Positions 25,354 to 43,850 of a DNA stretch of 64,000 bases are shown here, in pieces. Each line of letters begins with the position of its first letter. Position 1 is the first letter of the stretch. Source of the stretch: Labrys sp. KNU-23 (GTDB lineage Bacteria; Pseudomonadota; Alphaproteobacteria; Rhizobiales; Labraceae). The notes under the pieces were generated by a model that saw only the letters and a program-made list of their open reading frames with translations, did not search any database and had not been told where the DNA came from. Position numbers and translations under genes: made by a program. Location: positions 2,553,501 to 2,617,500 of the forward strand of contig NZ_CP043489.1 in the NCBI RefSeq assembly GCF_008330945.1, given 5' to 3'.

Positions 25354-26232
25354 CTAGCCACGCAGCCGGCGGCAGATGTCGTCGAGCTGCTCGAGCGATT
25401 TGTAGCGAATCTTCAGCTCGCCGCCGTCGCCGCGATGATCGAGTACGACCTTGAGGCCAAGCACGTCCGAGATGGTTCGCTCCAGCGCAATCGTATCGGG
25501 ATCTTTCTCGATACGGCTGCGCGCCCTCAACGTCTTGCCGGCACTTTGCGACTGATCCTGCACGATGCTTTCGGCGTCGCGCACCGACATGTTCTCGTCG
25601 ATGATCAGTCGGGCCACGCTTTCAGGATCGGAGACCGAGAGGAGCGCGCGGGCATGCCCGGCGGTCAACTTGCCGTTCACCACATTGGTCTTGATCGCGT
25701 CCGGAAGCTTGAGCAGCCGCAGCGTGTTCGCCACATGGCTACGGCTCTTGCCGATCACCTTGGCAAGGTCGTTCTGAGAATAGGAAAATTCCTCGATCAG
25801 ACGATCATAGCCAACCGCTTCTTCGATGGCGTTGAGGTCAGCGCGCTGAACGTTTTCGATGATTGCGAGTTCGAGCGCTTCCTTATCCGAAGCCTCGACG
25901 ATCGTTACGGGTACATCATGAAGCCCGGCTCGTTGCGCAGCGCGCCAGCGGCGCTCACCCGCGATGATTTCATAGGCATCCATACTGCCGGCGACGGCGC
26001 GAACCAGGATTGGCTGAATGATGCCCTTCTCGCGAACGGAATTTGCGAGATCCTCCAGTTCATCCTCGCTGAAATTCTGGCGCGGATTCTTCGGATTCGG
26101 CCGCAGAAACCCGGTCGGCACCCGGCGTTGACCACGAGCCCGTTCGATTGCCGATCCTTCCTCGCCGGCATCACCAATCAGGGCAGCCAGGCCGCGACCC
26201 AGGCGCGGTCGCATTTTGTCGTCAGAAGTCAT
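25354..26232 (-). CDS. parB: Chromosome-partitioning protein ParB
   Basis: A 292-residue ParB, the CTP-dependent DNA clamp that loads at parS. The CTP-binding N-terminal domain carries GERRWRAAQ (92-100) and ENVQRADLNAIEEA (126-139). The helix-turn-helix is SQNDLAKVIGKSRSHVANTLRLLKL, and a C-terminal dimerisation domain ends YKSLEQLDDICRRLRG. Its parS targets are in this window: one perfect site inside rsmG and three variant sites at 33565-33632. It lies nine bp after parA and is cotranscribed with it. Confidence 0.97.
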   Translation of the reverse strand: MTSDDKMRPRLGRGLAALIGDAGEEGSAIERARGQRRVPTGFLRPNPKNPRQNFSEDELEDLANSVREKGIIQPILVRAVAGSMDAYEIIAGERRWRAAQRAGLHDVPVTIVEASDKEALELAIIENVQRADLNAIEEAVGYDRLIEEFSYSQNDLAKVIGKSRSHVANTLRLLKLPDAIKTNVVNGKLTAGHARALLSVSDPESVARLIIDENMSVRDAESIVQDQSQSAGKTLRARSRIEKDPDTIALERTISDVLGLKVVLDHRGDGGELKIRYKSLEQLDDICRRLRG

Positions 26233-26241
26233 GGTCGATCC

Positions 26242-27039
26242 TTACGCAGCACGCAGCATTTTCTCGCGCTGAATCACTTCGGAGGCGAGACGAACATAGG
26301 CCTGGCTACCCGGGCATTTGAGGTCATAAAGCAGAGAGGGCTTGCCATATGAAGGCGCTTCGGACACGCGTACATTACGCGGTATCACCGTCTGATAGAC
26401 CTTCTCACCGAGAAATTCACGGACGTCGGCCACGACCTGCCCGGAAAGATTGTTGCGCGCATCATACATGGTCAGCACCACGCCATGAATGCTGAGATGC
26501 GGATTGAGTGAATTGCGAACCTGTTCAACCGTGCGCAGGAGCTGCGACAACCCCTCCAGCGCGAAGAACTCACATTGCAGAGGCACCAGCACCGCATCCG
26601 CCGCCGCCATGGAGTTTACCGTCAGGAGATTGAGCGAAGGTGGGCAATCCACCAGCACATAGGAACAGGGGAAATCGCTCGACGCCGCCAGGGCATGAAT
26701 CGCCTTGCGCAAACGAAAGGCCCGATCACGCTCCCCGGCGATTTCAAGCTCGACACCGAGTAGATCCATATTGGACGGCGCAATATGCAACCGCGGCACC
26801 ACGGTCTCGACGATCGCCGAGCGCAGATCGCAATCGCCCACCATCACATCATAGGTGGTCCGCACACGTTGTTTCATGCCGATGCCAAGGCCGGTCGAAG
26901 CATTACCCTGCGGATCGAGATCAATGATCAGCACATCCTCACCGATTGCGGCGAGCGCAGTGCCAAGATTGATGGCTGTCGTGGTTTTGCCGACCCCACC
27001 CTTTTGATTGGCAATAGCGAGAATACGCGGCAACGTCAT
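26242..27039 (-). CDS. parA: Chromosome-partitioning ATPase ParA
   Basis: A 265-residue deviant-Walker ATPase: KGGVGKTTTAINLG (13-26) with the signature lysine, VLIIDLDPQGNAS (Walker A' side), YVLVDCPPSLN (Walker B) and the C-terminal VRVSEAPSYGKP block. It drives segregation of ParB-parS complexes. The start MTLPRILAIANQ is preferred over one nine bases upstream, whose ribosome binding site would be too close. Order rsmG-parA-parB is the usual origin-proximal operon. Confidence 0.96.
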   Translation of the reverse strand: MTLPRILAIANQKGGVGKTTTAINLGTALAAIGEDVLIIDLDPQGNASTGLGIGMKQRVRTTYDVMVGDCDLRSAIVETVVPRLHIAPSNMDLLGVELEIAGERDRAFRLRKAIHALAASSDFPCSYVLVDCPPSLNLLTVNSMAAADAVLVPLQCEFFALEGLSQLLRTVEQVRNSLNPHLSIHGVVLTMYDARNNLSGQVVADVREFLGEKVYQTVIPRNVRVSEAPSYGKPSLLYDLKCPGSQAYVRLASEVIQREKMLRAA

Positions 27040-27087
27040 GGCACCCATCTTTCCTGCAGCCTGAAGCGTGGAAATGGCATCTAAATA

Positions 27088-27732
27088 TCACCCGTCCAGG
27101 CGCCTTGTCGCGGCTTCAATCGAAACAATCTGCCCGGTCGAGTCAGTAAGGCTCGGTATCAATTCGGCCTGGATATTCCAATATTTAGTTGCTTGGGTCA
27201 ATTCCTGCTCTACATCTTGACCCTTGAGAAACAGGGCCCGGGCGCCGGTTTTCAACAACTCCGCACTGTAATCCAGCAATTCGGGCAGGGATGCCAGGGC
27301 ACGCGCCGTGATCAGATCCGCCCGATCCGGCCAGTTGGAGACGAAATCCTCAATCCGGACCGCATGCACTGTTGCCGGTGCGCCAGTTGCGCGGGCCACT
27401 TCGCGCAGGAAGGATGCCTTGCGACCATTCGACTCGACCAGATGTACGCGAAATCCTGAAACGGACTTGTTGGCGATGGCCAAGACCATGCCAGGGAAGC
27501 CCGCACCGCTGCCAAGATCCACAATCGTCCTGGCCTTGCCGAGAAGGGGAAGCAATTGAGCACTGTCTGCGACGTGTCGCGTCCAGACCTGCGAAAGGGT
27601 CGACGGTGCCACCAGATTCTTGATCTTCTGCCAGCGCTGCAGCAGCTCGACATAGAGGTCAAAGTCTCCAACTGTTTCACGTGAAACAGGGAGGGATTGA
27701 AGGGCTTCGCGGCGATCGCTCTCAAGAGTCAT
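27088..27732 (-). CDS. rsmG: 16S rRNA (guanine527-N7) methyltransferase RsmG
   Basis: A 214-residue class I SAM methyltransferase with the glycine motif TIVDLGSGAGFPGMVLAI and the flanking VAPSTLSQVWTRHVADSAQLLP block typical of GidB/RsmG. It methylates G527 of 16S rRNA; loss causes low-level streptomycin resistance in other bacteria. The coding sequence contains a perfect parS (27673-27688), which is read as PVSRETV near the N-terminus, so the centromere site is embedded in an essential reading frame position. Confidence 0.95.
   Translation of the reverse strand: MTLESDRREALQSLPVSRETVGDFDLYVELLQRWQKIKNLVAPSTLSQVWTRHVADSAQLLPLLGKARTIVDLGSGAGFPGMVLAIANKSVSGFRVHLVESNGRKASFLREVARATGAPATVHAVRIEDFVSNWPDRADLITARALASLPELLDYSAELLKTGARALFLKGQDVEQELTQATKYWNIQAELIPSLTDSTGQIVSIEAATRRLDG
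27673..27688. promoter_or_regulatory. parS: Perfect parS centromere site
   Basis: TGTTTCACGTGAAACA, a 16-bp perfect palindrome identical to the ParB binding consensus. It lies within rsmG, about 9.7 kb from the candidate oriC, and contains no GANTC site. Confidence 0.93.
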
Positions 27733-27815
27733 GGCTGGACCATGGCCGATCCGGCCTAGAGAGGCAAGTGAGACCTGCAACAATCCAAGGTTTCGACTGT
27801 CTGGCGAGGATTGGT

Positions 27816-27933
27816 GAATCGGGAAAGCGACGCTTCCATCGATCGTTCAACCCGAGGCGCTGCCGCGTCCAAGTCTTCCCTCGGACACGTCGCTTTCATT
27901 CCGAAAAGATTCGATACGAGTCCGAATCGATTC
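27816..27933. promoter_or_regulatory. GANTC cluster between mnmG and rsmG
   Basis: Four GANTC motifs fall within 26 bp (27908-27912, 27918-27922, 27924-27928, 27929-27933) with a fifth at 27816-27820. GANTC is the target of the cell-cycle methylase CcrM in alphaproteobacteria. The cluster lies in the gap upstream of rsmG-parA-parB and reaches the mnmG stop codon, so methylation-dependent control of that operon is possible. Confidence 0.5.
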
Positions 27934-29800
27934 AGCAAGTCGCCCGCACCTGCTTACGCTTACGCAGAGCCGCCAGCAGAAGGGTGGTCGCGGCCGGCGT
28001 GATGCCGTCGATCCGGCTCGCCTGGCCAATGGTCCTCGGCTGCACGCTGGCAAATTTCTGCCGCGTCTCGTTGGAAAAGCCCACCACGGCACTGAAGTCA
28101 AAATCGTTAGGAATTTCAATATTTTCGTCACGACGGAACGCCGCCACATCCGCCTTCTGGCGCTCCAGATAAACCGCGTATTTGGCCTCGATCTCGACCT
28201 GCTCCAGTACCGTGCCCTCGAACCCGCCCGCTTCCGGCCAGAGACGGGTGAGATCGGAGAAGCCGACATTGGGATAGGCGAGCAGATCGAAGGCAGAGCG
28301 TCTTACGCCATCACGATTGATGTGAATGCCAGCTACCTCGGCCTGATTGGGCGTCACCGAAACGGATCGGCTCCAAGCCAGGGCCGCTTCATAGGCCGCC
28401 TGCTTGGCTTTCCAGGCCTGCTCACGCTGCGCGCCGACCAGGCCGAGCACCAAGCCGCGATCCGTCAGGCGACGATCGGCATTGTCGGCGCGCAGCGTCA
28501 GGCGATATTCGGCCCGCGAGGTGAACATGCGATAGGGCTCGCTGACACCGCGGGTGACGAGATCGTCGATCATCACGCCGATATAGGATTCATCGCGGCG
28601 GAAGACTATGCCCTCGCCGCCACCTGCGCGCCGCGCCGCATTGAGCCCGGCGACGAGACCTTGGGCGCCCGCCTCCTCATAACCCGTGGTGCCATTGATC
28701 TGCCCGGCCAGGAACAGCCCACGCACCCGCCGCGCCTCCAGGGTCGCATCGAGTTCGCGCGGGTCGATATGGTCATACTCGATGGCATAGCCGGGACGGA
28801 TCATCCGCACCTTCTCGAGACCGGGTATCGTCGCGAGCATGGCCTGCTGCACATCCTCGGGCAGGGAGGTCGAGATGCCATTGGGATAGACGGTATGGTC
28901 GTTCAAACCCTCCGGCTCCAGGAAGATCTGATGACCGTCCCGTTCGCCAAAGCGCACCACCTTGTCCTCGATCGACGGGCAATAGCGCGGCCCTCGGCTT
29001 TCGATCTGGCCCGAATAGATCGGAGCGCGGTGGATATTGTCCTGGATGACCTTATGGGTCTGAGGCGTGGTGCGGGTGATGCCACAGGAAACCTGCGGAT
29101 TGGGCAGGCGCGTGGTCAGTGTCGAGAACGGCTCTGGTGGCTCGTCACCAGGCTGCATCTCCAGCGAGGCCCAGTCGATGGTCAGACCATCGAGACGGGC
29201 TGGCGTACCGGTCTTCAGGCGCCCCAGTTCGAAACCAATGCGGGCGAGCGTCCGGGAAAGGCCGAGCGCCGGCGCTTCGCCGACACGGCCGGCGGCCATC
29301 CTGGTATCGCCGATATGGATGACGCCGCTGAGAAAAGTTCCGGTGGTCAAGACAACCGATCCGCATCCGAATCGATCGCCCTTCGTGGTCAGTACGGCCT
29401 GGACCCGACCGTCCATGATCTCGATATCGTCGACTTCAGCTTCGACAACGACCAGATTGGCCTGCTCCGCGATAGCCGCCTGCATGGCAGCGGCATAAAG
29501 GGCACGATCGGCCTGCGCCCGTGGGCCGCGCACGGCCGGCCCCTTGCGGCGATTGAGCACGCGAAACTGGATGCCGCCCTGGTCGGCAACGCGTCCCATC
29601 AAACCATCGAGCGCGTCTATCTCGCGCACGAGATGTCCCTTGCCGAGCCCGCCGATCGCCGGGTTGCAGGACATGGTGCCGATCGTATCGGCCCGATGGG
29701 TGACGAGGGCCGTACGGGCGCCAAGTCGCGCGGCGGCGGCCGCCGCCTCGCAGCCGGCATGGCCCCCGCCCACCACGATCACATCGAATTGCCGGTCCAT
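27932..29800 (-). CDS. mnmG: tRNA uridine-5-carboxymethylaminomethyl modification enzyme MnmG
   Basis: A 622-residue FAD enzyme acting with MnmE to make cmnm5U34 in tRNAs. It shows the N-terminal FAD motif [15 protein letters not shown], the GidA signatures [23 protein letters not shown] and [16 protein letters not shown], and [18 protein letters not shown] near residue 370. The start MDRQFDV is the standard one; the frame is open for 57 more codons upstream that include a long hairpin. It follows mnmE on the same strand. Confidence 0.96.
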
Positions 29801-29854
29801 CGTCGAATTCCATCCGTCCGCCATCGCGGCATCGAACTCCATTCCGCCCTTGCG

Positions 29855-29904
29855 AACGCAGCCAAACACTCCAGGGGCCAGGGCCCGGAGTGCTTGGCTG
29901 CGTT
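29855..29904. repeat. Long hairpin (18-bp stem) between mnmE and mnmG
   Basis: Arms 29855-29872 and 29887-29904 are complementary at 17 of 18 positions (AACGCAGCCAA...) around a 14-nt GC-rich loop. There is no T tract on either side, so it is not an ordinary intrinsic terminator; it could be an mRNA-processing or stability element in the mnmE-mnmG transcript. Confidence 0.6.
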
Positions 29905-30064
29905 GGTAGGGACGGCGCGAAATATCAGTGTTTCGGCTGCAGCTATTACGCTGAAGCGGCTTCCGCGTCAAAGCCGGCAGCGAGGCCCAAGAACGAGGGA
30001 ACCCGGGATCGGCCAGGTTCAGCCCGATTTCCCGGCGCGGCTCCGGACAGCAAGCCCCGGGCTC

Positions 30065-31390
30065 TCACTTGCCAATGCAGAATTCGCGGAAGATCACGTC
30101 ATAAATCTCATCGATATCGACCCTGCCGGTCAGCCGGCCGATGGCGCGCACCGCAAGGCGCAGATCCTCGGCGACGAACTCCACCGGCGTCGCCTCATCC
30201 GCAGCCTGCACCGTGGCCAGATGTACCACCACCGTCTCGAGTTCCCGGCGGTGGCGCTCCCGCGTCACCAGAGCGGTCTCGCCGCCCTCCAGGGCCTCTC
30301 TGGCTGCCTGTTCGAGCCGCTCGAGCAAGACCGGCATGCCAGCACCGCTACGGGCTGAAAGACCGAGCTCGAAGCCTGTGGGAAAAGGACCTTGGAGCGA
30401 GGGGCTTTGGCTGTCGTCCTGCTTGGTGAGGACGCGCAGGAATGGGGCGGACAGGGCCGGTGGGTCTGCCCGGGCGTCGTCCGCCTCGAGCCAGATCACC
30501 AGATCAGCACGTTCGAGGCTCACCCGCGCCCGCTCCACACCGATCGACTCGATCGCATCCGCCGTCTCGCGCAGGCCGGCGGTATCGATCAGGGTCACCG
30601 GATAGCCACCAAGATCGAGATGCACCTCCAGCGTATCACGGGTGGTGCCGGCGATGGGCGAAACGATGGCGACATCGCGCCGAGCCAACGTATTGAGCAG
30701 CGTGGACTTGCCGGCGTTGGGCGGGCCCGCGATCACCATCACCGCACCTTCACGCAGGCGCTCGCCGCTGCGCGCACCACGCAGAGCCGCCTCGATCTCC
30801 GTCCGCAAGGCCTCGGCGCCTGACCGGACCGACTGAAAGAGGGCAGGGACATCCTCCTCGTCCGGGAAATCGATCTCGGCCTCCATCAGGGCCAGCAACG
30901 CGGCAAGACGTTGCCGCCAGCGCGCTGCTTCCCGTTCCAGCGCACCGCCGGCCTGCCGCAGCGCCTGCCGCCTCTGGCTTGATGTCTCCGCCTCGACCAG
31001 GCTGGCAATGCCCTCCGCCGAGGTGAGGTCCATGCGGCCATTGGCGACGGCCCGCCGGGTGAATTCGCCACGTTCGGCCAGGCGAAAGCCCGGCAAGGCG
31101 GTGAGCGCGGCGATCACGCCCGAAACAATGGCTCGGCCGCCATGCACCTGCAGCTCGGCGACGTCCTCGCCCGTGAAGCTGGCCGGGCCCGGAAAGAACA
31201 GTACGAGGGCCTCGTCGAGCACTTCCCTGCTTTCAGGGTCTCTCAGCCGTCGCAACACGGCGCGGCGCGGCTGTGGCACATCGCCGGCAATCGTTTCCAA
31301 CCCGAATCGAACCGAGGAGCCCGACAGTCGGATCACCGCGATGCCGGCGCGGCCAACACCCGAGGCCAGTGCGACAATCGTCTCAGCCAT
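30065..31390 (-). CDS. mnmE: tRNA modification GTPase MnmE
   Basis: A 441-residue GTPase partner of MnmG. The tetrahydrofolate-binding N-domain ([19 protein letters not shown]) is followed by helical parts and the inserted G domain: G1 GPPNAGKST (222-230), IAGTTRD switch region and DTAGLRET (269-276). The protein ends with the invariant FCIGK, whose Cys is needed for the modification. The start at 31390 drops five residues before MAETIVAL. Confidence 0.96.
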
Positions 31391-31471
31391 GCACGAAAAC
31401 TCCACCGGATCCGACAGCTTCGGGCTTCCGCGAGGCCGTCGCGCTTTTACTTCCCCGCCGGCGACCCCATA

Positions 31472-31490
31472 CTCTCTTCATGAAAGAGAG
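31472..31490 (+). promoter_or_regulatory. Palindrome overlapping the ribosome binding site of the thioredoxin-domain gene
   Basis: CTCTCTT (31472-31478) and AAGAGAG (31484-31490) form a 7-bp stem around CATGA. The 3' arm is part of the GAGAGG ribosome binding site for the ATG at 31500, so folding would hide it. Confidence 0.4.
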
Positions 31491-31499
31491 GCTGCCATC

Positions 31500-33545
31500 A
31501 TGTCCACTGCGCTGCAAAACAACCTCGCCCATGAAACCAGCCCCTATCTGATCCAGCACGCCGGCAATCCCGTGCATTGGCAGCCCTGGGGCGAAGGGGC
31601 CCTGGCACTGGCCCGGGCCCGAAACAAACCGATCCTGCTCTCCGTCGGCTATGCCGCCTGCCACTGGTGCCACGTCATGGCGCATGAGAGCTTCGAGAAT
31701 CCCGATATCGCCGCCGTCATGAACGAGCTTTTCATCAACATCAAGGTAGATCGCGAGGAGAGGCCCGATATCGACCAGATCTATATGACCGCCCTCCACG
31801 CCCTCGGGGAGCAGGGTGGCTGGCCTCTCACCATGTTCCTGACCCCCGGCGGCGAACCCTTCTGGGGCGGCACCTACTATCCGCCTGAATCACGCTATGG
31901 CCGTCCCGGTTTCGTCGACGTGCTGCGAGCCATCGCCAAGGCCTACCACACCGATTTCGAACGGGTCGGCCGCAACCGCCAGGCGCTGCTCGACGTGCTC
32001 TCCCGCATTCCCCAGCGCGGCGACCGTGCTTTCGGCGCCGACGGCCTTGCCCAGGCGATCACAGCATTGGCCGGCATCACCGATCCCGTCAATGGCGGCA
32101 CCAAGGGCGCGCCGAAATTCCCGAATGCCTCCTATCTCGAACTGCTATGGCGTGGCGGGCCGAACAGCGAGGCTCGCAAGCTGATGCTGCTGACGCTGGA
32201 ACGCATCTGCCAGGGCGGCATCCGCGATCATATCGGCGGCGGCTTTGCCCGCTACAGCGTCGATGAAGTTTGGCTGGTGCCCCATTTCGAGAAGATGCTC
32301 TACGACAATGCCCAGCTGCTCGAACTGCTGGCGCTGGCCTGGCAGGAGACCAGACGCGATCTCTTCCGCCAGGCGGCCACCGAAATGGTCGAATGGCTGC
32401 AGCGCGAGATGATGGCGGGAGAAGGCCGGACTCTGGACGGCCAGACCCTGAACGGCTCGGCCTTCGCCGCGTCCCTCGATGCCGATTCCGAGGGGCATGA
32501 GGGCCGCTTCTATGTGTGGAAGCCCCATGAACTCGCCGAGATCCTTGGCGTGGACGATGCCGAATTCGTCGCCCATACGTTCGACATTGCCGACGGGGGC
32601 AATTGGGAGGGCCAATCCATTCCCAATCGCCTCGGCAAGCCGGACCTCGAACCGGCCCTCGAAATTGGCTGGCAGGATCTCAGGCCAAGGCTGATCAGCG
32701 AGCGGGCTAAACGCATCGCGCCGGCTCGCGACGACAAGGTCCTGGCCGACTGGAACGGCCTCGCCATCGCCGCACTCGCACGCGCCTCCCTTGTGTTCGA
32801 CAAGCCGGAATGGCTCGACCTTGCCCGTGCGGCTTTCCGTTTCGTAGCCGAATCCATGGCGGACGGACCACGGCTCGGCCATTCCTGGCGCGATGGCCGG
32901 CTGTTGAGGCCGGGTCTCGCCACCGATCTTGCCGCCATGATCCGCGCTGCTCTCGCCCTGCATGAAGCCGGAGTTGGGCAAAGCTATCTCGACCGGGCCC
33001 TGGGCTGGGCGGAGGCAATCGAACGCGATTACCTGGATGTCGAAGGTGGTGGCTATTTCCTCACCGCAAAGGACGCCGCCGCCCTGATCACCCGGCCACG
33101 CTCCACGCTCGATGACGCCGTTCCCAATGCCAATGGCATCATGGCGGACAATCTCGTCCGCCTCGCTGCCGTGACCGGCGAGGAGCGCTGGCTGCGCCGC
33201 GGAGACGAACTGCTGACCGCTTTGTCACCAGCGATGGCGGGCAATGTCTTCGGGCACGCCTCCCTGCTCAACGCTCTCGATCTCAGGCTCCATGGCCTGG
33301 AGATCGTCGTGATCGGCAGCGGGGAGGAGGCCGATCGTCTCACCCGCGCTGCCCTCGATCAGCCCTACCCGAACCGGACCATCCTGCGAGCGGCGGTGCC
33401 TGGAGAGCTGCCGGCCGGACACGCCGTCCATCAGGCCAATGCCGGTGATGAGCCTGCCGTTTTCGTCTGCTCGGGGCAACGCTGCTCGCTGCCTGTCAGG
33501 GACGAGAAAGCCCTGATCGTGACGATGGCCTCCATGCGCGGATAG
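31500..33545 (+). CDS. Thioredoxin-domain (DUF255, YyaL/SPATA20-like) protein
   Basis: A 681-residue protein of the widespread YyaL/SPATA20 family. It has an N-terminal thioredoxin-like domain with [20 protein letters not shown] and a C54-H-W-C57 active-site motif ([13 protein letters not shown]), then [14 protein letters not shown]. An alpha/alpha toroid resembling N-acylglucosamine epimerases follows ([12 protein letters not shown]-free body, [30 protein letters not shown]). Its biochemical role is not established. It is the only plus-strand gene between 23.7 kb and the origin and is followed by the parS cluster. Confidence 0.9.
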
Positions 33546-33564: not shown

Positions 33565-33632
33565 TGTTTCACGTGAATCACCGGCCTGCCTGTTTCACGT
33601 GAATCAGGGTCGAGGGTGATTCACGTGAAACA
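33565..33632. promoter_or_regulatory. parS: Cluster of three variant parS sites each containing a GANTC site
   Basis: TGTTTCACGTGAATCA at 33565-33580 and 33591-33606, and its reverse complement TGATTCACGTGAAACA at 33617-33632. Each differs from the perfect parS by the same A-to-T change, which creates GAATC/GATTC. Sites two and three with two flanking bases make 18-bp perfect inverted arms (33589-33606, 33617-33634) around a 10-bp spacer. The cluster is about 3.6 kb from the candidate oriC. Confidence 0.85.
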
Positions 33633-33967
33633 GGGTTAACATAGCAAGTACGGGCGGTCCCACAGTCATTGAGCGCAGCGACGCGATCCAACCTGCTTCA
33701 ACCCTCGTACTTGCCGGCCCCTGAATTGCGTCTCTGTGTCTGCAATGACGGCACGTGAGCCGACCTGGGAGGGAGGCCCAGTAGGCGATTTCGAACATGC
33801 TTTGACGGCTCGATCCCTCGGCCATCTCCTAAGCAAAGCGCGATCATGCCGATCGTTTGTCTGCCAGTTCCAGAACGCTTTGGCGATGTTCCGCTCCCGA
33901 ATCGATGCGTAAAGCAAAACGGCCCGGCATTGCTGCCGGGCCGTTCGGGATAATCGTGATGGATATC
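33633..33967. other. Intergenic region between the parS cluster and the rho terminator
   Basis: No gene is supported. It includes the start of a possible dispersed repeat (AAGCAAAGCGCGATC around 33832) and ends in the rho terminator hairpin at 33911-33944. Confidence 0.4.
33911..33944 (-). terminator. Intrinsic terminator of rho
   Basis: On the minus strand an 11-bp stem (ACGGCCCGGCA with TGCCGGGCCGT, 4-nt loop) is followed by TTTGCTTT. It lies 24 bp downstream of the rho stop codon. Confidence 0.85.
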
Positions 33968-35233
33968 TCAGGTATTCATCGAATCGAAGAAGTCCGCATT
34001 GAGCTTGGTCTGGCGCAGCTTGTCGAGCAGGAACTCGATAGCATCGACCGTACCCATTGGGTTGAGGATGCGGCGCAGCACATACATCTTCTTCAAGATA
34101 TCGCTGGGAACCAGCAGCTCTTCCTTGCGGGTACCCGAGCGGGTGATGTCGATCGCCGGGAAGACACGCTTGTCGGAAACCTTGCGGTCCATGATGATTT
34201 CCGAGTTGCCGGTGCCCTTGAACTCTTCGAAGATCACCTCGTCCATGCGCGAACCGGTTTCGATCAGCGCGGTGGCGATGATGGTCAGCGAGCCGCCCTC
34301 TTCGATGTTACGGGCGGCACCGAAGAAGCGCTTCGGCCGCTGCAGGGCGTTGGCGTCGACACCGCCGGTCAGCACCTTGCCGGAGGACGGCACCACGGTG
34401 TTGTAGGCGCGGCCCAGACGGGTGATCGAATCAAGCAGGATGACCACGTCGCGGCCGTGCTCGACCAGGCGCTTGGCCTTTTCGATCACCATTTCGGAGA
34501 CCTGCACGTGACGGGCCGCCGGCTCGTCGAAGGTGGAGGACACCACTTCGCCCTTCACCGAACGCTGCATGTCGGTGACTTCTTCCGGACGCTCGTCGAT
34601 CAGCAGCACGATCAGATAGCATTCGGGATGGTTGGCGGTGATCGATTGGGCGATGTTCTGCAAGAGCACGGTCTTGCCGGTACGCGGCGGAGCAACCACC
34701 AGAGCGCGCTGGCCCTTGCCGATCGGCGCCACGATATCGATGACGCGCGAGGAATAGTCCTTCTTGGTGGCGTCGCCGATCTCGAGCTTCAGCCGCTGGT
34801 TGGGATAGAGCGGCGTGAGGTTGTCGAAATTGATCTTGTGCTTGGTCTTGTCCGGATCTTCGAAATTGATCGTGTTGACCTTGAGCAGGGCGAAATAGCG
34901 TTCGCCGTCCTTGGGAGAGCGGATAATGCCCTCGACCGTGTCGCCAGTGCGCAGGCCGAACTTGCGGATCTGCGAAGGCGACACATAGATGTCATCGGGG
35001 CCGGGCAGATAATTGGCCTCCGGCGAGCGCAGGAAGGCGAAGCCGTCCTGCAACACCTCGACGACACCCTCGCCGACGATCTCGACCTCGCGACTGGCGA
35101 GCTGCTTGAGCACGGCGAACATGAGTTCCTGCTTGCGCATCGAGGAGGCGTTCTCGACCTCGAGTTCCTCGGCGAAGGCAAGCATTTCGATGGGGGTTTT
35201 GGATTTAAGATCCTGAAGTTTGATTTCCCGCAT
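33968..35233 (-). CDS. rho: Transcription termination factor Rho
   Basis: A 421-residue hexameric RNA-dependent ATPase of standard length. The N-terminal helical and OB-fold RNA-binding parts include [23 protein letters not shown]. The ATPase core has [15 protein letters not shown] (Walker A), [14 protein letters not shown] (Walker B), and the Q-loop/R-loop region [20 protein letters not shown]. The start [11 protein letters not shown] has AAGGA upstream. The rho-hemJ-hemE neighbourhood next to the origin is characteristic of Rhizobiales. Confidence 0.97.
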
Positions 35234-39593: not shown

Positions 39594-42500
39594 CTACCAC
39601 CTGTAGCGCACGCCGGCGGTACCCTTGAGGGTGTAATTGTCGCCGCCCTTGCCGGAAAGAGCCATGGCATAGCTGGCCTCGCCATAGGCGCTCCAGTTCT
39701 TGTTCCAGCTATAGGTGGCGCCGGCGCCGACCTCGCCCCACAGGCGACGGTTGCCCTGTACCAGCGAGGCGCCGGACACCTTCACGCTCCTGCCTTTCAG
39801 GAACTCATAGGTCAGGTTGGCGATACCGTAGAACTGCAGGCGCGCCGTCTGGCCAGTGGCATCTTGCCAGCTCGACAGATGCTCGAGCCGAAGACCAGCG
39901 CGACCCTGCAGGCTGTCGCCCTGGCCGAGGGCGATGCGGTTGCCCAGATTGTCGGTGAAGCTGGAGAAGTCGACATGGGTCCAGGCGAGCTGGGCCTGCG
40001 GCACCACCGCCCAGCCCGAGCCGAGCTCATAGCGCTTGCCGACCTCCAGGCTCAGCGCGCTCGACCAGCCCTGGTTGTGGCCGGTCTTGTTCGACAGGCT
40101 CGAATCATACCAGGTGAACTGGCCGATGGCGTCGGCATAGAGGCCGTCATGGCCGAGCCAGGTCAGGTTGGCGCCGATGCCATAACCGCGCGTGGTGATC
40201 CGGCCCTTGGCCCGGGCCGCACCGGTGACCGGGTCGTTGCTGACATCGATGCGGGCCGTGGAGGTGCCGATGATCGCATAGGCGCCGATGGTGAGATCGC
40301 CCGCCGCGGTTTCCCTGGCCACGCCTTCATAGCCGGCCTGCAGGAAGCCGATGCTCTGGTTGTAGGCCGAACCTGTCCGCGGACTGAAGGAGGAATACTG
40401 CCCTCCCATCCGCCCCCAGGCGCCCTGGCCGATCAGCGCTGGCCCGCCTTTGGCATAGGCCATCGCCCCGGCAGGCGGCAGGTTGGCCGCGACCGCGGCG
40501 GTGCCGTCGGGCCAGATGCGGTTGCCGGTGCGCTGCTGCAGGGTGCCTAGTGTCGCCTGCGCGAAGTTCGAGAGCACGTCCGCATAGGGCAAGGCCGTCT
40601 GGCTGGTGGGAGCCAGCTTGCCCGTCGAACGCAGATACCAGTTCTGGCTGCCGGCATTGTTCCCCACGCCGCCGAGATAGAGGTTGTAGTCATAGGCACC
40701 GGCCGAGACGGCCGCGCCGAGACTGAAGGCGCCGGCCTGCGAGGTGCCGCCGACCTGGATGACCTCGATGCCGTCGGCGGTGGTCGCCGCGCCGGCGCCG
40801 CCGCTGTTGTGGATGTTGAGGGTTGTCGTCCCCGAGACATCGCCTTTGACGATCAGCTTGTCGGTCGGCGAACCATCCGAGGCCAGATGGGTGTCGAGCT
40901 CCAGCGTGCCACCATGGCCGATATAGCTCCCCGCCACCGTGAGGGTGTTCGTGGGATTGGGATTGTTGGCATGGAGGTCGATCGTTCCGGCATTGGCGAC
41001 ATTGCCGGAGATCGTGACGGCCTGGATGGCCGGTGCCAGTGTCACCTTGCCACCGCCCTTGATGTCGAGCTGCTCGGTGGCAAGGTCGCCGGTGAGATTG
41101 AGCGCACCACCGGAGCGCACATTGACCGTCTCCCAATTGGCGATCTGAATATTGCCGGGCGCCCCGGCGGAGGCCGAAGACCCCGTGATGGCGCGGTCGA
41201 GGTTCAGCGTGTCGATCATGCCGTCGCCACTCGACACATCGTCGCCACCGTCGAGGGCGGTCAAGGCGGAAATATCCGCACCGCCGGCGATGTTGACGGT
41301 ATCGCTGCCATTGCCGAGCCTGATCGCTCCCGAGACCTTCGAGCCGCCCTGCAAGGTGGTGGTGGCATTGCCGTCGGTATCCCGGATGCCAAGCCCGGAA
41401 GAAGCCGATACGTCCGAGCCGGCCTGAAGGTTGATCGCAACGGCGGAGCCGGCCGTGGTAGTCGTCAGCACGCCCGCACCCGAACCGCCGGCAACAAGGG
41501 CCGCCACATTCACAGTCGTGGCACCGGCACCATAGTTGGTGGCGCTGATACCGTCAGTGGCGCCCTTGATCTCGCCCGCCGTCTGCTCGACCTTCAAATC
41601 CGTGCCGTAATTGGTCGCAGAGACACCGGCGCCGGCAGATCCCGTCACCTTGCCCGATGTCGTGATGACCGCCGTACCCGTACCGTAATTGTTGGCGCTG
41701 ATGCCGTCGGTACCGCCCGAGATTTCGCCGGCTGTCTGCGTCACGGTCAACTCGGTGCCGGAATTCTGGGCATAGATGCCGTTGCCGGAGGAGCCCGTTA
41801 CGGTGCCGGCCGTCCTGACCGCTGTCGAGCCCTTGCCGGTGTTGGTGGCCCAGATGCCGCTGCTGCCGCCCGTGACCGAGCCCGCCGTCTGTTCCACCGT
41901 AAGATTCTGGCCATTATTGGTTGCAAGGATACCAATGCCGCTGGCGGCGGAAGCGCTGACAGCGCCGGCTGTCGTGATTGTGGTCGAGCCCGTGCCGTTA
42001 TTGGTTGCGCTGATGCCGCTGGTAATCCCTGATATCTTACCGGCCGTCTGTTCGACCTTCAGATCCTTGCCGTTGTTGACGGCATAGACACCGATGCCCG
42101 CAGAGCCGGTCACCGTGCCGGCCGTCGTGACGGAGGTCGACCCCTTGCCACTGTTGGTCGCACGTATGCCGTAGGTCGATCCTGTGATCGACCCAGCTGT
42201 CTGAGTTACCGATATATTGCCGGTGGAGGCGTTGTTGGCGATCGAGGCTACCACGCCCGCGCTCAAGGGCGCGTAGGTCGCGGTTACCGTCCCGGCCGTC
42301 GTCACATCGACCGAGCCCAGGCCGTAGTGCTGGGCAAGAATGCCGGCATCGCCGCCGCTGATGCTGCCGGCCGTCTGGTTCACGGTGACGGTGCTGGTGG
42401 ACTGGGCATTCCATCCGGTGGCATAGACGGCTGCATACCCAAAGCTGCCATTACCGCTTGCCGCCGTGGAGGTGATCGTTCCGGCCGTGGTGACTTCTGT

Positions 42501-43232
42501 CGAACCCAAGCCGTAATTCTCGATCCGTATGCCGCTCATCATCGCGGAAATGGTCCCGCCCGTCTGGTTGACGGTGGCATTGCCGGTTCCGGCGGAATTG
42601 CCATAAACGCCATAGATCCCGAAGGACTGGAAATTGTCCATCGAGCCGTTCACGGTTCCGGCCGTGGTAATGGTCATCGCGCCCGTGCCGTTCTGGGTGG
42701 CATAGACGCCGAACATGAGGCCTGCGATCGTGCCTCCGGTCTGATCGATCGTCAGATCCGTGCCGGAGGCGTTGTTCGTCGCCTTCAGGCCCGATGTATA
42801 GGGGTTGGAATTGTAGATCAGGCTCGTGGCGGATCCGGCCGACGTGATGGTCATGGCTCCGGGGCCGTTATTTGTCGCGGTGACGGCATCTGCGCCCGAT
42901 GCGGAGACAACGGCCGTCGAGTCCAGCGACAGGGATGTCAGGGGCGAACCCGTAACATTGATGGGGCTCGTATTGCCCGAGCAGGCATAGGCATTGGGGC
43001 CGCCGGTGCAGGCTGCCCATGCTCGGTCGGCATTTTTGACAAGGGCGCCGGGCAGCATCACCGGCGTTGCGATGAGGCCGGCCGCCAGTGCCGATGTCGA
43101 AATGGAAGAAAGCGAGGTGCGGAACACGAACGGCGCAAGCAGCCGGCTTGCGGCGGTCTTGATCGGCTGGCGCTTTTGGGCAGCACGAGATCTGTTCGGA
43201 GAGCCGGAGGGCTTCTTGCTTTGCGTTGTCAT
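39594..43232 (-). CDS. Autotransporter (type Va) with tandem-repeat passenger
   Basis: A 1212-residue surface protein. An extended N-terminus with a basic stretch (residues 1-40) precedes a hydrophobic signal segment ending near AWAA. The passenger (about 75-900) consists of beta-helix-forming repeats; seven to eight units of about 51 residues with the pattern TAGTVTGS-G-GVYA-NNG-DLKVEQTAG-ISG-T-GI-ATN-G-GST. The last 270 or so residues are an autotransporter beta-barrel (AMAYAKGGPALIGQGAWGRMGGQ to LKGTAGVRYRW) ending in the terminal aromatic Trp. An adhesin role is inferred. A palindrome is found 63 bp upstream. Confidence 0.9.
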   Translation of the reverse strand: MTTQSKKPSGSPNRSRAAQKRQPIKTAASRLLAPFVFRTSLSSISTSALAAGLIATPVMLPGALVKNADRAWAACTGGPNAYACSGNTSPINVTGSPLTSLSLDSTAVVSASGADAVTATNNGPGAMTITSAGSATSLIYNSNPYTSGLKATNNASGTDLTIDQTGGTIAGLMFGVYATQNGTGAMTITTAGTVNGSMDNFQSFGIYGVYGNSAGTGNATVNQTGGTISAMMSGIRIENYGLGSTEVTTAGTITSTAASGNGSFGYAAVYATGWNAQSTSTVTVNQTAGSISGGDAGILAQHYGLGSVDVTTAGTVTATYAPLSAGVVASIANNASTGNISVTQTAGSITGSTYGIRATNSGKGSTSVTTAGTVTGSAGIGVYAVNNGKDLKVEQTAGKISGITSGISATNNGTGSTTITTAGAVSASAASGIGILATNNGQNLTVEQTAGSVTGGSSGIWATNTGKGSTAVRTAGTVTGSSGNGIYAQNSGTELTVTQTAGEISGGTDGISANNYGTGTAVITTSGKVTGSAGAGVSATNYGTDLKVEQTAGEIKGATDGISATNYGAGATTVNVAALVAGGSGAGVLTTTTAGSAVAINLQAGSDVSASSGLGIRDTDGNATTTLQGGSKVSGAIRLGNGSDTVNIAGGADISALTALDGGDDVSSGDGMIDTLNLDRAITGSSASAGAPGNIQIANWETVNVRSGGALNLTGDLATEQLDIKGGGKVTLAPAIQAVTISGNVANAGTIDLHANNPNPTNTLTVAGSYIGHGGTLELDTHLASDGSPTDKLIVKGDVSGTTTLNIHNSGGAGAATTADGIEVIQVGGTSQAGAFSLGAAVSAGAYDYNLYLGGVGNNAGSQNWYLRSTGKLAPTSQTALPYADVLSNFAQATLGTLQQRTGNRIWPDGTAAVAANLPPAGAMAYAKGGPALIGQGAWGRMGGQYSSFSPRTGSAYNQSIGFLQAGYEGVARETAAGDLTIGAYAIIGTSTARIDVSNDPVTGAARAKGRITTRGYGIGANLTWLGHDGLYADAIGQFTWYDSSLSNKTGHNQGWSSALSLEVGKRYELGSGWAVVPQAQLAWTHVDFSSFTDNLGNRIALGQGDSLQGRAGLRLEHLSSWQDATGQTARLQFYGIANLTYEFLKGRSVKVSGASLVQGNRRLWGEVGAGATYSWNKNWSAYGEASYAMALSGKGGDNYTLKGTAGVRYRW
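41500..42850 (-). repeat. Tandem repeats of about 153 bp in the autotransporter gene
   Basis: At protein level about eight units recur, the four C-terminal-most ones 51-53 residues long with high similarity (EQTAG-I-G-T-GISATN), the N-terminal ones longer and more diverged (58-63 residues). Such arrays can change copy number by recombination. Confidence 0.75.
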
Positions 43233-43850
43233 GTTGTCTTGATTTGACCGATTGGTGCGATGGCGCACATATCGAGGCTGGCGATAGAGGACGATGTGCG
43301 ATTTCGCACACTCAAAAGTTGTATGTCGTTGATCTCAGGGAGTATTTTGCTGGAGTTCGCCCAGGTGCCGCCGGCGACGGTCAAGGATTGCGAACGGCAT
43401 TCCCGCTGATTGGGTAGAGGCGCAGAGCAATGATTTCTTCGGCAAAATCAGAAGGTTAAGCTTTCGATCGCCGCTGAAGCCGAGTTGCCTGATCTGCCTA
43501 ACTGCGGAAATCCCATCCGACGTTCGACGTTTACTGCGCGTCGGAAGGCTCAATCAAAATCAGTATAGCCGACAACCGGAGGTAGCCGCCCGCTTCTCAC
43601 CGTTCATGCACGGAACGATCCTCGCTTCCGGGCTATCGACGTTTCGCGCTGCGGGTCCGCATCACAGCATGTCTCAAAGCCTGAAACGACACCTTCGATA
43701 CCTCGTCTCGTGCCAGCAGAATAACGAAGCCGGCTCCTACCGAACGGTGCCATGTCCCTCCGGTATCGCAACAGGGGCTGTGGCAGCTTGCGTTCTATCG
43801 TAAAAAGTCTATTCTTGTTGTACAATCGTTCAATAAGAAATTGATCCGAG
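43233..43850. promoter_or_regulatory. Divergent promoter region between autotransporter and TMADH-like gene
   Basis: No gene is seen in 618 bp. Near the autotransporter end, TGTGCGA-TT-TCGCACA (43295-43310) is a 7-bp-arm palindrome likely to be an operator or hairpin. Near the other end a 28-bp operator (43812-43839) lies just before the TMADH-like start codon. The middle (43330-43800) shows nothing I can name. Confidence 0.5.
43812..43839. promoter_or_regulatory. Palindromic operator, copy 1 (probable TetR target)
   Basis: Half-sites TTCTTGTTGTAC and GTTCAATAAGAA around AATC fit TTCTT-r-TTG-w-AC-N4-GT-w-CAA-y-AAGAA. It ends 11 bp before the start codon of the TMADH-like gene. A nearly identical palindrome lies at 47516-47543 upstream of the binding-protein/tetR pair. 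Confidence 0.75.

Follow-up and report, generated by a model that had tools for sequence, protein, structure and literature searches.

An asymmetric form of parS with a CcrM target in one arm recurs at the chromosomal parAB loci of Hyphomicrobiales

The window, that is, the whole stretch of 64,000 nucleotides that was analysed, carries the gene order parB-parA-rsmG-mnmG-mnmE that is typical of the origin-side cluster in alphaproteobacteria; a DUF255 gene and rho, which face each other, come next, followed by hemE. Four parS sites lie among these genes, one canonical and three variant:

25354-26232, minus strand: parB, 292 amino acids, with R/T/K/G at the residues matching Caulobacter 173/179/184/201
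26242-27048, minus strand: parA (Pfam AAA_31/CbiA)
27088-27783, minus strand: rsmG/gidB (Pfam GidB); longest frame, true start probably further in
27673-27688, palindromic: canonical parS within the rsmG (gidB) reading frame, without GANTC
27932-29971, minus strand: mnmG/gidA (Pfam GIDA); longest frame
30065-31405, minus strand: mnmE/trmE (Pfam MnmE_helical and TrmE_N)
31008-33545, plus strand: DUF255/YyaL-like (thioredoxin-like) gene (Pfam Thioredox_DsbH); longest frame
33565-33580, plus strand: variant parS 1, TGTTTCACGTGAATCA, with the CcrM site GAATC at 33575-33579
33591-33606, plus strand: variant parS 2, TGTTTCACGTGAATCA, with GAATC at 33601-33605
33617-33632, minus strand: variant parS 3, reading TGATTCACGTGAAACA on the plus strand, with GATTC at 33618-33622
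33968-35233, minus strand: rho (Pfam Rho domains), with the variant sites past its 3' end

The 5' end of the longest DUF255 frame overlaps mnmE, so that its true start is probably later. The variant sites occupy the gap between the convergent 3' ends of the DUF255 gene and rho, 7.3 kb from parB, and a scan of the window for promoter-like sequences found none between 33400 and 34000. Cumulative GC skew along the window reaches its minimum at about 32-40 kb, and DnaA boxes in the window are not above chance. A large autotransporter gene is found at 39594-43268, a few kb past rho and hemE.

The site in rsmG matches TGTTTCACGTGAAACA with 0 mismatches, and each of the three variant sites differs from it by 1. 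Each variant has one canonical arm and one arm altered at position 3/14 and is hence not a full palindrome; the GANTC starts at 33575, 33601 and 33618 place one such motif inside each. The mismatch scan thus bears out what the first-pass annotation had read from the letters, namely three sites with an identical one-arm change that creates GAATC/GATTC. The perfect 18-bp inverted arms that it described with a neighbouring site are those of sites 2 and 3; the inverted arms shared by sites 1 and 3 are longer, at 23 bp (AACCCTGTTTCACGTGAATCACC). The spacing between variant sites is 26 bp in both intervals. Chance as the origin of these sites was excluded by their number in the window (4 matches with up to 3 mismatches against 0.04 expected, with 0 of 100 shuffles reaching 4) together with a scan of the whole 7.5-Mb genome, where only these four parS were found at up to 2 mismatches and the reversed-pattern control gave 1. 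Three species share a GGGTTAA after the third site (33617-33640 in the window; also L072 and L073), despite divergence over most of the gap, and this may be an additional element.

Within the genus of the window, all five genomes carry the variant arm in at least one site. In the three closest species the sites persist while most of the gap aligns poorly, and in one congeneric species two sites stand 195 bp apart, versus 26 bp in the window. Alignment of the locus in relatives had been proposed as a check from the outset, and it shows the GANTC-bearing form persisting beyond a single strain; an oddity of one strain is ruled out by the presence of the variant arm in the genus and across the order. 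In a fourth species of the genus (G001, locus L074) all three parS, including two with the variant arm, carry the core CATGTG instead of CACGTG. Such a joint change of the core suggests one and the same ParB for variant and canonical sites alike.

The same form is widespread in the order Hyphomicrobiales. A parS changed at position 14 was found in 119 of 297 genomes of the order, the changed letter being, among the matches listed, G in 13, C in 1 and T in the rest. In a phylum sample of 398 genomes the change occurred in 21 of the 46 from this order (19 T, 2 G). Among 89 genomes from the remaining orders of the class a single one had it (G), as did 3 of 263 from other classes (1 T, 2 G). Among the matches listed, 58 of the 62 variant rows with a known parB position lie on the parB contig, all 58 within 17.4 kb of the gene; the remaining 4 are on another contig of one genome.

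For a closer count, we examined stretches of at most 20 kb around parB from 79 Hyphomicrobiales (78 further genomes and the window, G000) and from 42 other Alphaproteobacteria. The Hyphomicrobiales sample consists of 80 of the 120 first-listed genomes, of which G050 gave no ParB; locus L134 is a 3.8-kb fragment and several other loci are shorter than 20 kb. Of 45 other Alphaproteobacteria with ParB, G406, G480 and G577 were left out. Counted on 14-base cores, the 79 loci hold 107 one-arm variants and 122 canonical sites, so that one-arm variants make up 107 of the 229 sites counted. The 42 loci from other orders hold 77 canonical sites and neither one-arm nor double variants. Double variants are also absent from the 79 loci, where independent arms would give an expected 12.5. 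Under a slightly wider definition, the variant is present in 49 of the 79 loci and absent from 30. On trees built with FastTree from ParA, MnmG and MnmE (118 of 121 loci used; L186 from another order falls within Hyphomicrobiales, and L138 from Hyphomicrobiales falls among the others), this definition requires 18 state changes, of which 10 are forced by supported branches. Variant sites also differ in placement. Outside the matched parts of seven marker genes lie 88 of 101 variant sites (8 of them beyond the outermost marker) versus 56 of 122 canonical sites, and 57 of the 122 canonical sites are inside rsmG. Variant sites occur at several gene boundaries across the order. Taken together, the three sites of the window are very likely members of a conserved subclass of chromosomal parS in Hyphomicrobiales.

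T14 occurs in 47 of 78 loci, in multiple copies in 29 of them, with 20 state changes on the FastTree tree; in the same 78 loci, G14 is found in 7, each time as a single copy and with 7 state changes, and C14 in none. These sporadic GAAGC arms (L101, L106, L121, L129, L130, L139 and L145) are a natural control without GANTC. A scan of named-species genomes, from a set of 84,980, gave at least 118 stretches; in the 80 loci used, the counts by locus among the matches listed were T42:G2:C0 in Hyphomicrobiales and T15:G16:C5 in others (p=1e-7), with loci sorted to orders by record title and genus and the unclear L205, L227, L256 and L258 counted as others.

Across 397 genomes of the order, 29 sites combine an intact left arm with a change at position 13. 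GAGTC accounts for 23 of them, and the remaining 6 fall below the 8 matches of the reversed-pattern control. The 23 GAGTC sites come from 6 families and are far from independent, as a single genus supplies 11 and one further family 6, and their distance to parB was checked for part of them. In sites with an intact left arm, the N of GANTC is A or G, with no C or T. In the genus that supplies the 11 (L327-L333 and L055; 8 genomes), a canonical parS is followed by 1-3 variant sites that share its direction at spacings of mostly 32-48 bp, with GAATC and GAGTC exchanging between species. The variant arms of these arrays read GAGTC in 12 of 19 cases, a share inflated by the choice of 7 of the 8 loci for holding GAGTC, and GAATC in 7 of 19, while G13 is found in 0 of 16 canonical arms. 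On these GAGTC counts, position 13, otherwise nearly fixed, varies where a GANTC is present, and in a way that preserves the GANTC. In the 79-locus set alone the contrast at position 13 is 3 of 111 versus 1 of 133 (p=0.33), with one mirror-image site counted as GAGTC on the other strand. Position 12, where a change breaks GANTC, gave 1 T in 57 and 15 in the reversed control, with most rows coming from clades without variants; it was rejected as a test of broken GANTC on account of this confounding by clade, the contrast being gone in variant-bearing loci (1 of 111 versus 2 of 133). The retention of T far above G or C at position 14 and the GANTC-preserving change at position 13 suggest that the motif itself matters, and GANTC is, by a modest balance of this evidence, probably what selection keeps.

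GANTC is also dense beside the sites. Within 60 bp of parS, outside marker genes and with parS-like sites masked, its density exceeds that in other such DNA 2.1- to 2.3-fold: 59 sites in variant loci (7.95/kb versus 3.52/kb, ratio 2.26), 24 in the non-variant loci of the order (7.26/kb versus 3.42/kb) and 9 in other orders (3.00/kb versus 1.42/kb, ratio 2.12). Two of seven control motifs are likewise raised in variant loci (TCNGA 1.84 and AGNCT 1.74, versus 2.26 for GANTC), and near parS in other orders CTNAG exceeds GANTC (2.78 versus 2.12), at small n. This masked count replaced a density over whole loci, in which coding DNA was unseparated and weaker sites were unmasked.

The first-pass annotation had named absence of CcrM from the genome as evidence against its idea, and CcrM is present, as a methylase with a RAMA domain (3.5e-18, G000:C1:1051988-1053055). 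It is encoded in 80 of 80 genomes of the order, in 40 of 45 other Alphaproteobacteria and in 0 of 15 genomes of other classes. With 80 of 80 positive, its presence cannot account for which members of the order have the variant, and as a correlate within the order it was set aside as uninformative. Of the 42 loci read among the 45 genomes of other orders, 37 are from genomes with CcrM, and none has the variant. CcrM is therefore available but not sufficient for variant sites.

Published binding data bear on how a one-arm change is received by ParB. In the available text of a study on Burkholderia cenocepacia (PMC5450999), the one-arm change T3A in parSc1 is bound by ParB c1 with a score close to wild type by SPR imaging, and one-arm T3C also scores similarly to wild type; all double changes at 3-14 abolish binding. 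In the competition test in vivo described there, one-arm T3A and T3C had no effect; T3A gave no incompatibility phenotype, a result that weighs against the explanation proposed below. The failure of double changes, by analogy, would explain the absence of double variants in Hyphomicrobiales. As far as that account goes, the equal treatment of T3C and T3A means that tolerance by ParB, at least by ParB c1, gives T no advantage over G on its own, and the bias toward T then needs another cause, of which GANTC would be the simplest.

The overall best explanation, which we put forward tentatively, is a conserved asymmetric parS subclass with a CcrM arm at which ParB loading depends on methylation. 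One arm is canonical and the other is altered at position 3/14 to hold the CcrM site GA[A/G]TC. ParB would still load, using the intact arm and a second arm that it tolerates; the Lys/Arg that ParB of this order mostly has at Caulobacter position 184 would help. The adenines targeted by CcrM would fall inside the ParB contact region, and affinity or clamp loading may then differ between fully methylated DNA ahead of replication and the extended hemimethylated phase that follows, by which origin capture would be timed to the cell cycle.

The strongest rival to this explanation is a reading in which ParB alone accounts for the sites: a relaxed or shifted specificity accepts or prefers T14 in one arm, the sites are weaker auxiliary parS, and GANTC is a by-product. 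We regard it as a serious possibility, albeit one that falls short of probable. The variant tracks the order and not CcrM. Although the DNA-contact residues 162, 171, 172, 173, 178 and 201 (Caulobacter numbering) are identical or nearly so in all groups, K or R stands at position 184 in 67 of 79 Hyphomicrobiales ParB versus 1 of 42 others. Either K/R184 or a non-acidic residue 163 is found in every variant-bearing ParB (49 of 49), in 25 of 30 without variants and in 6 of 42 others (49 of 49, 24 of 29 and 6 of 40 in the tree set), and an acidic residue 163 is seen in 8 of the 49 variant-bearing ParB and in 18 of the 30 other ParB of the order (raw p=1.4e-4). The set R/T/K/G, which the ParB of the window shows, makes Caulobacter ParB promiscuous, and in Noc the lysine matching 184 makes contact with the thymine 2 phosphate (both from the accessible part of PMC7383237); in the numbering of this report, thymine 2 corresponds to position 3 of the 16-mer. 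With K/R184, most ParB of the order naturally carry a kind of residue that has been called permissive in ParB-to-Noc variants made in the laboratory. On the other side, independent tree pairs give no support for residue 163 or 184, and neither was retained as a cause. Specificity of ParB also leaves unexplained that G14 is sporadic and C14 absent, given that T3C is bound like T3A in vitro, for another ParB, in the portion of PMC5450999 at hand; nor does it explain G13, which is above chance only beside T14, or the density of GANTC beside parS.

A different reader of methylation (e.g., GcrA), or competition between ParB and CcrM, would make the methylation state report or regulate local transcription or origin sequestration and not ParB loading. 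In its favour, GANTC is enriched not only within parS but also next to it; occlusion of GANTC by bound MucR is established in Caulobacter and Sinorhizobium, and the GANTCs of the Caulobacter parS locus show no response to extra methylase, as far as the available text of PMC5172544 goes. This reading is nevertheless unlikely, as the sites of the window lie between convergent 3' ends in an interval free of promoter-like matches. The same change in three sites had originally been ascribed to selection or duplication. Local duplication fits the 23-bp arms of sites 1 and 3 and the tandem arrays in another genus, but inheritance and copying of one ancestral, functionless variant as the sole cause is very improbable: it sits poorly with 18 to 20 state changes, depending on which of two definitions is used and with supported branches forcing at least 10, with variants at several gene boundaries, with sites that persist while their flanks align poorly and with 0 double variants. 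Recurrence across the order, at these boundaries and with these forced changes, strengthens the case for selection.

Returning to methylation-dependent loading, the step in which methylation tunes ParB loading is itself doubtful, though a realistic prospect. Against it stand the other orders, which have CcrM without such sites, and Agrobacterium tumefaciens, where ori1 segregation is unchanged on CcrM depletion in the part of PMC11514494 available. That source describes altered ori2 on CcrM depletion or overexpression with ori1 partitioning not noticeably affected, the form of the ori1 parS being outside the comparison, and ori1 duplication without obvious effect on depletion. It also states that GANTCs near ori1 appear less methylated than those near the terminus, which fits hemimethylation through S phase. 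A pure GANTC reading, in turn, is opposed by the lack of C and T at N in sites with an intact left arm, which GANTC alone does not require, and by the non-significant position-13 contrast of the 79-locus set. In the accessible portion of the open-licence PMC literature, we found no report of a GANTC inside a chromosomal parS; a search there for the variant arm as text returned papers on canonical sites and two others, unrelated by title.

Control of origins of the Dam/SeqA type uses the hemimethylated state after replication as a timer. The idea of a timer would be shared here, with a centromere and not an initiator site as the target. Chromosomal parS of the ParABS system are alike in sequence, in the CACGTG core, in their place by parAB-rsmG-mnmG-mnmE and in the adjoining ParB gene; they are canonical in both arms, whereas the window variants have T14 (or A3) in one arm and are asymmetric, with a CcrM target. 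The one-arm parSc1 T3A of B. cenocepacia has the same base change and is bound by ParB c1 in vitro while the double is unbound, but it is a designed probe, whereas the form in the window is a natural site kept across a CcrM-bearing order (PMC5450999, available part). The repABC promoters and the 3parS locus of alphaproteobacterial plasmids and chromids are GANTC-rich, with CcrM sites, for which a role has been suggested, close to a centromere or partition locus; there, as far as the available excerpts of PMC9040568 and PMC11514494 describe, GANTC lies beside parS or in promoters and the parS belongs to the RepB family, whereas here it lies inside an arm of a chromosomal parS.

These findings matter for the question of how origin segregation in alphaproteobacteria is tied to replication and to the CcrM cycle. 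The parS sites with and without a CcrM target found throughout the order, with GAATC, GAGTC, GAAGC and GAAAC arms, are near-ideal natural controls with which this question can be tested directly. Even with a mistaken methylation reading, a widespread asymmetric parS would still stand, together with a ParB bearing natural permissive residues. If that reading is right, which we consider possible without expecting it, part of the origin region in Hyphomicrobiales would be a methylation-switched centromere, and segregation would be timed by the passage of the replication fork.
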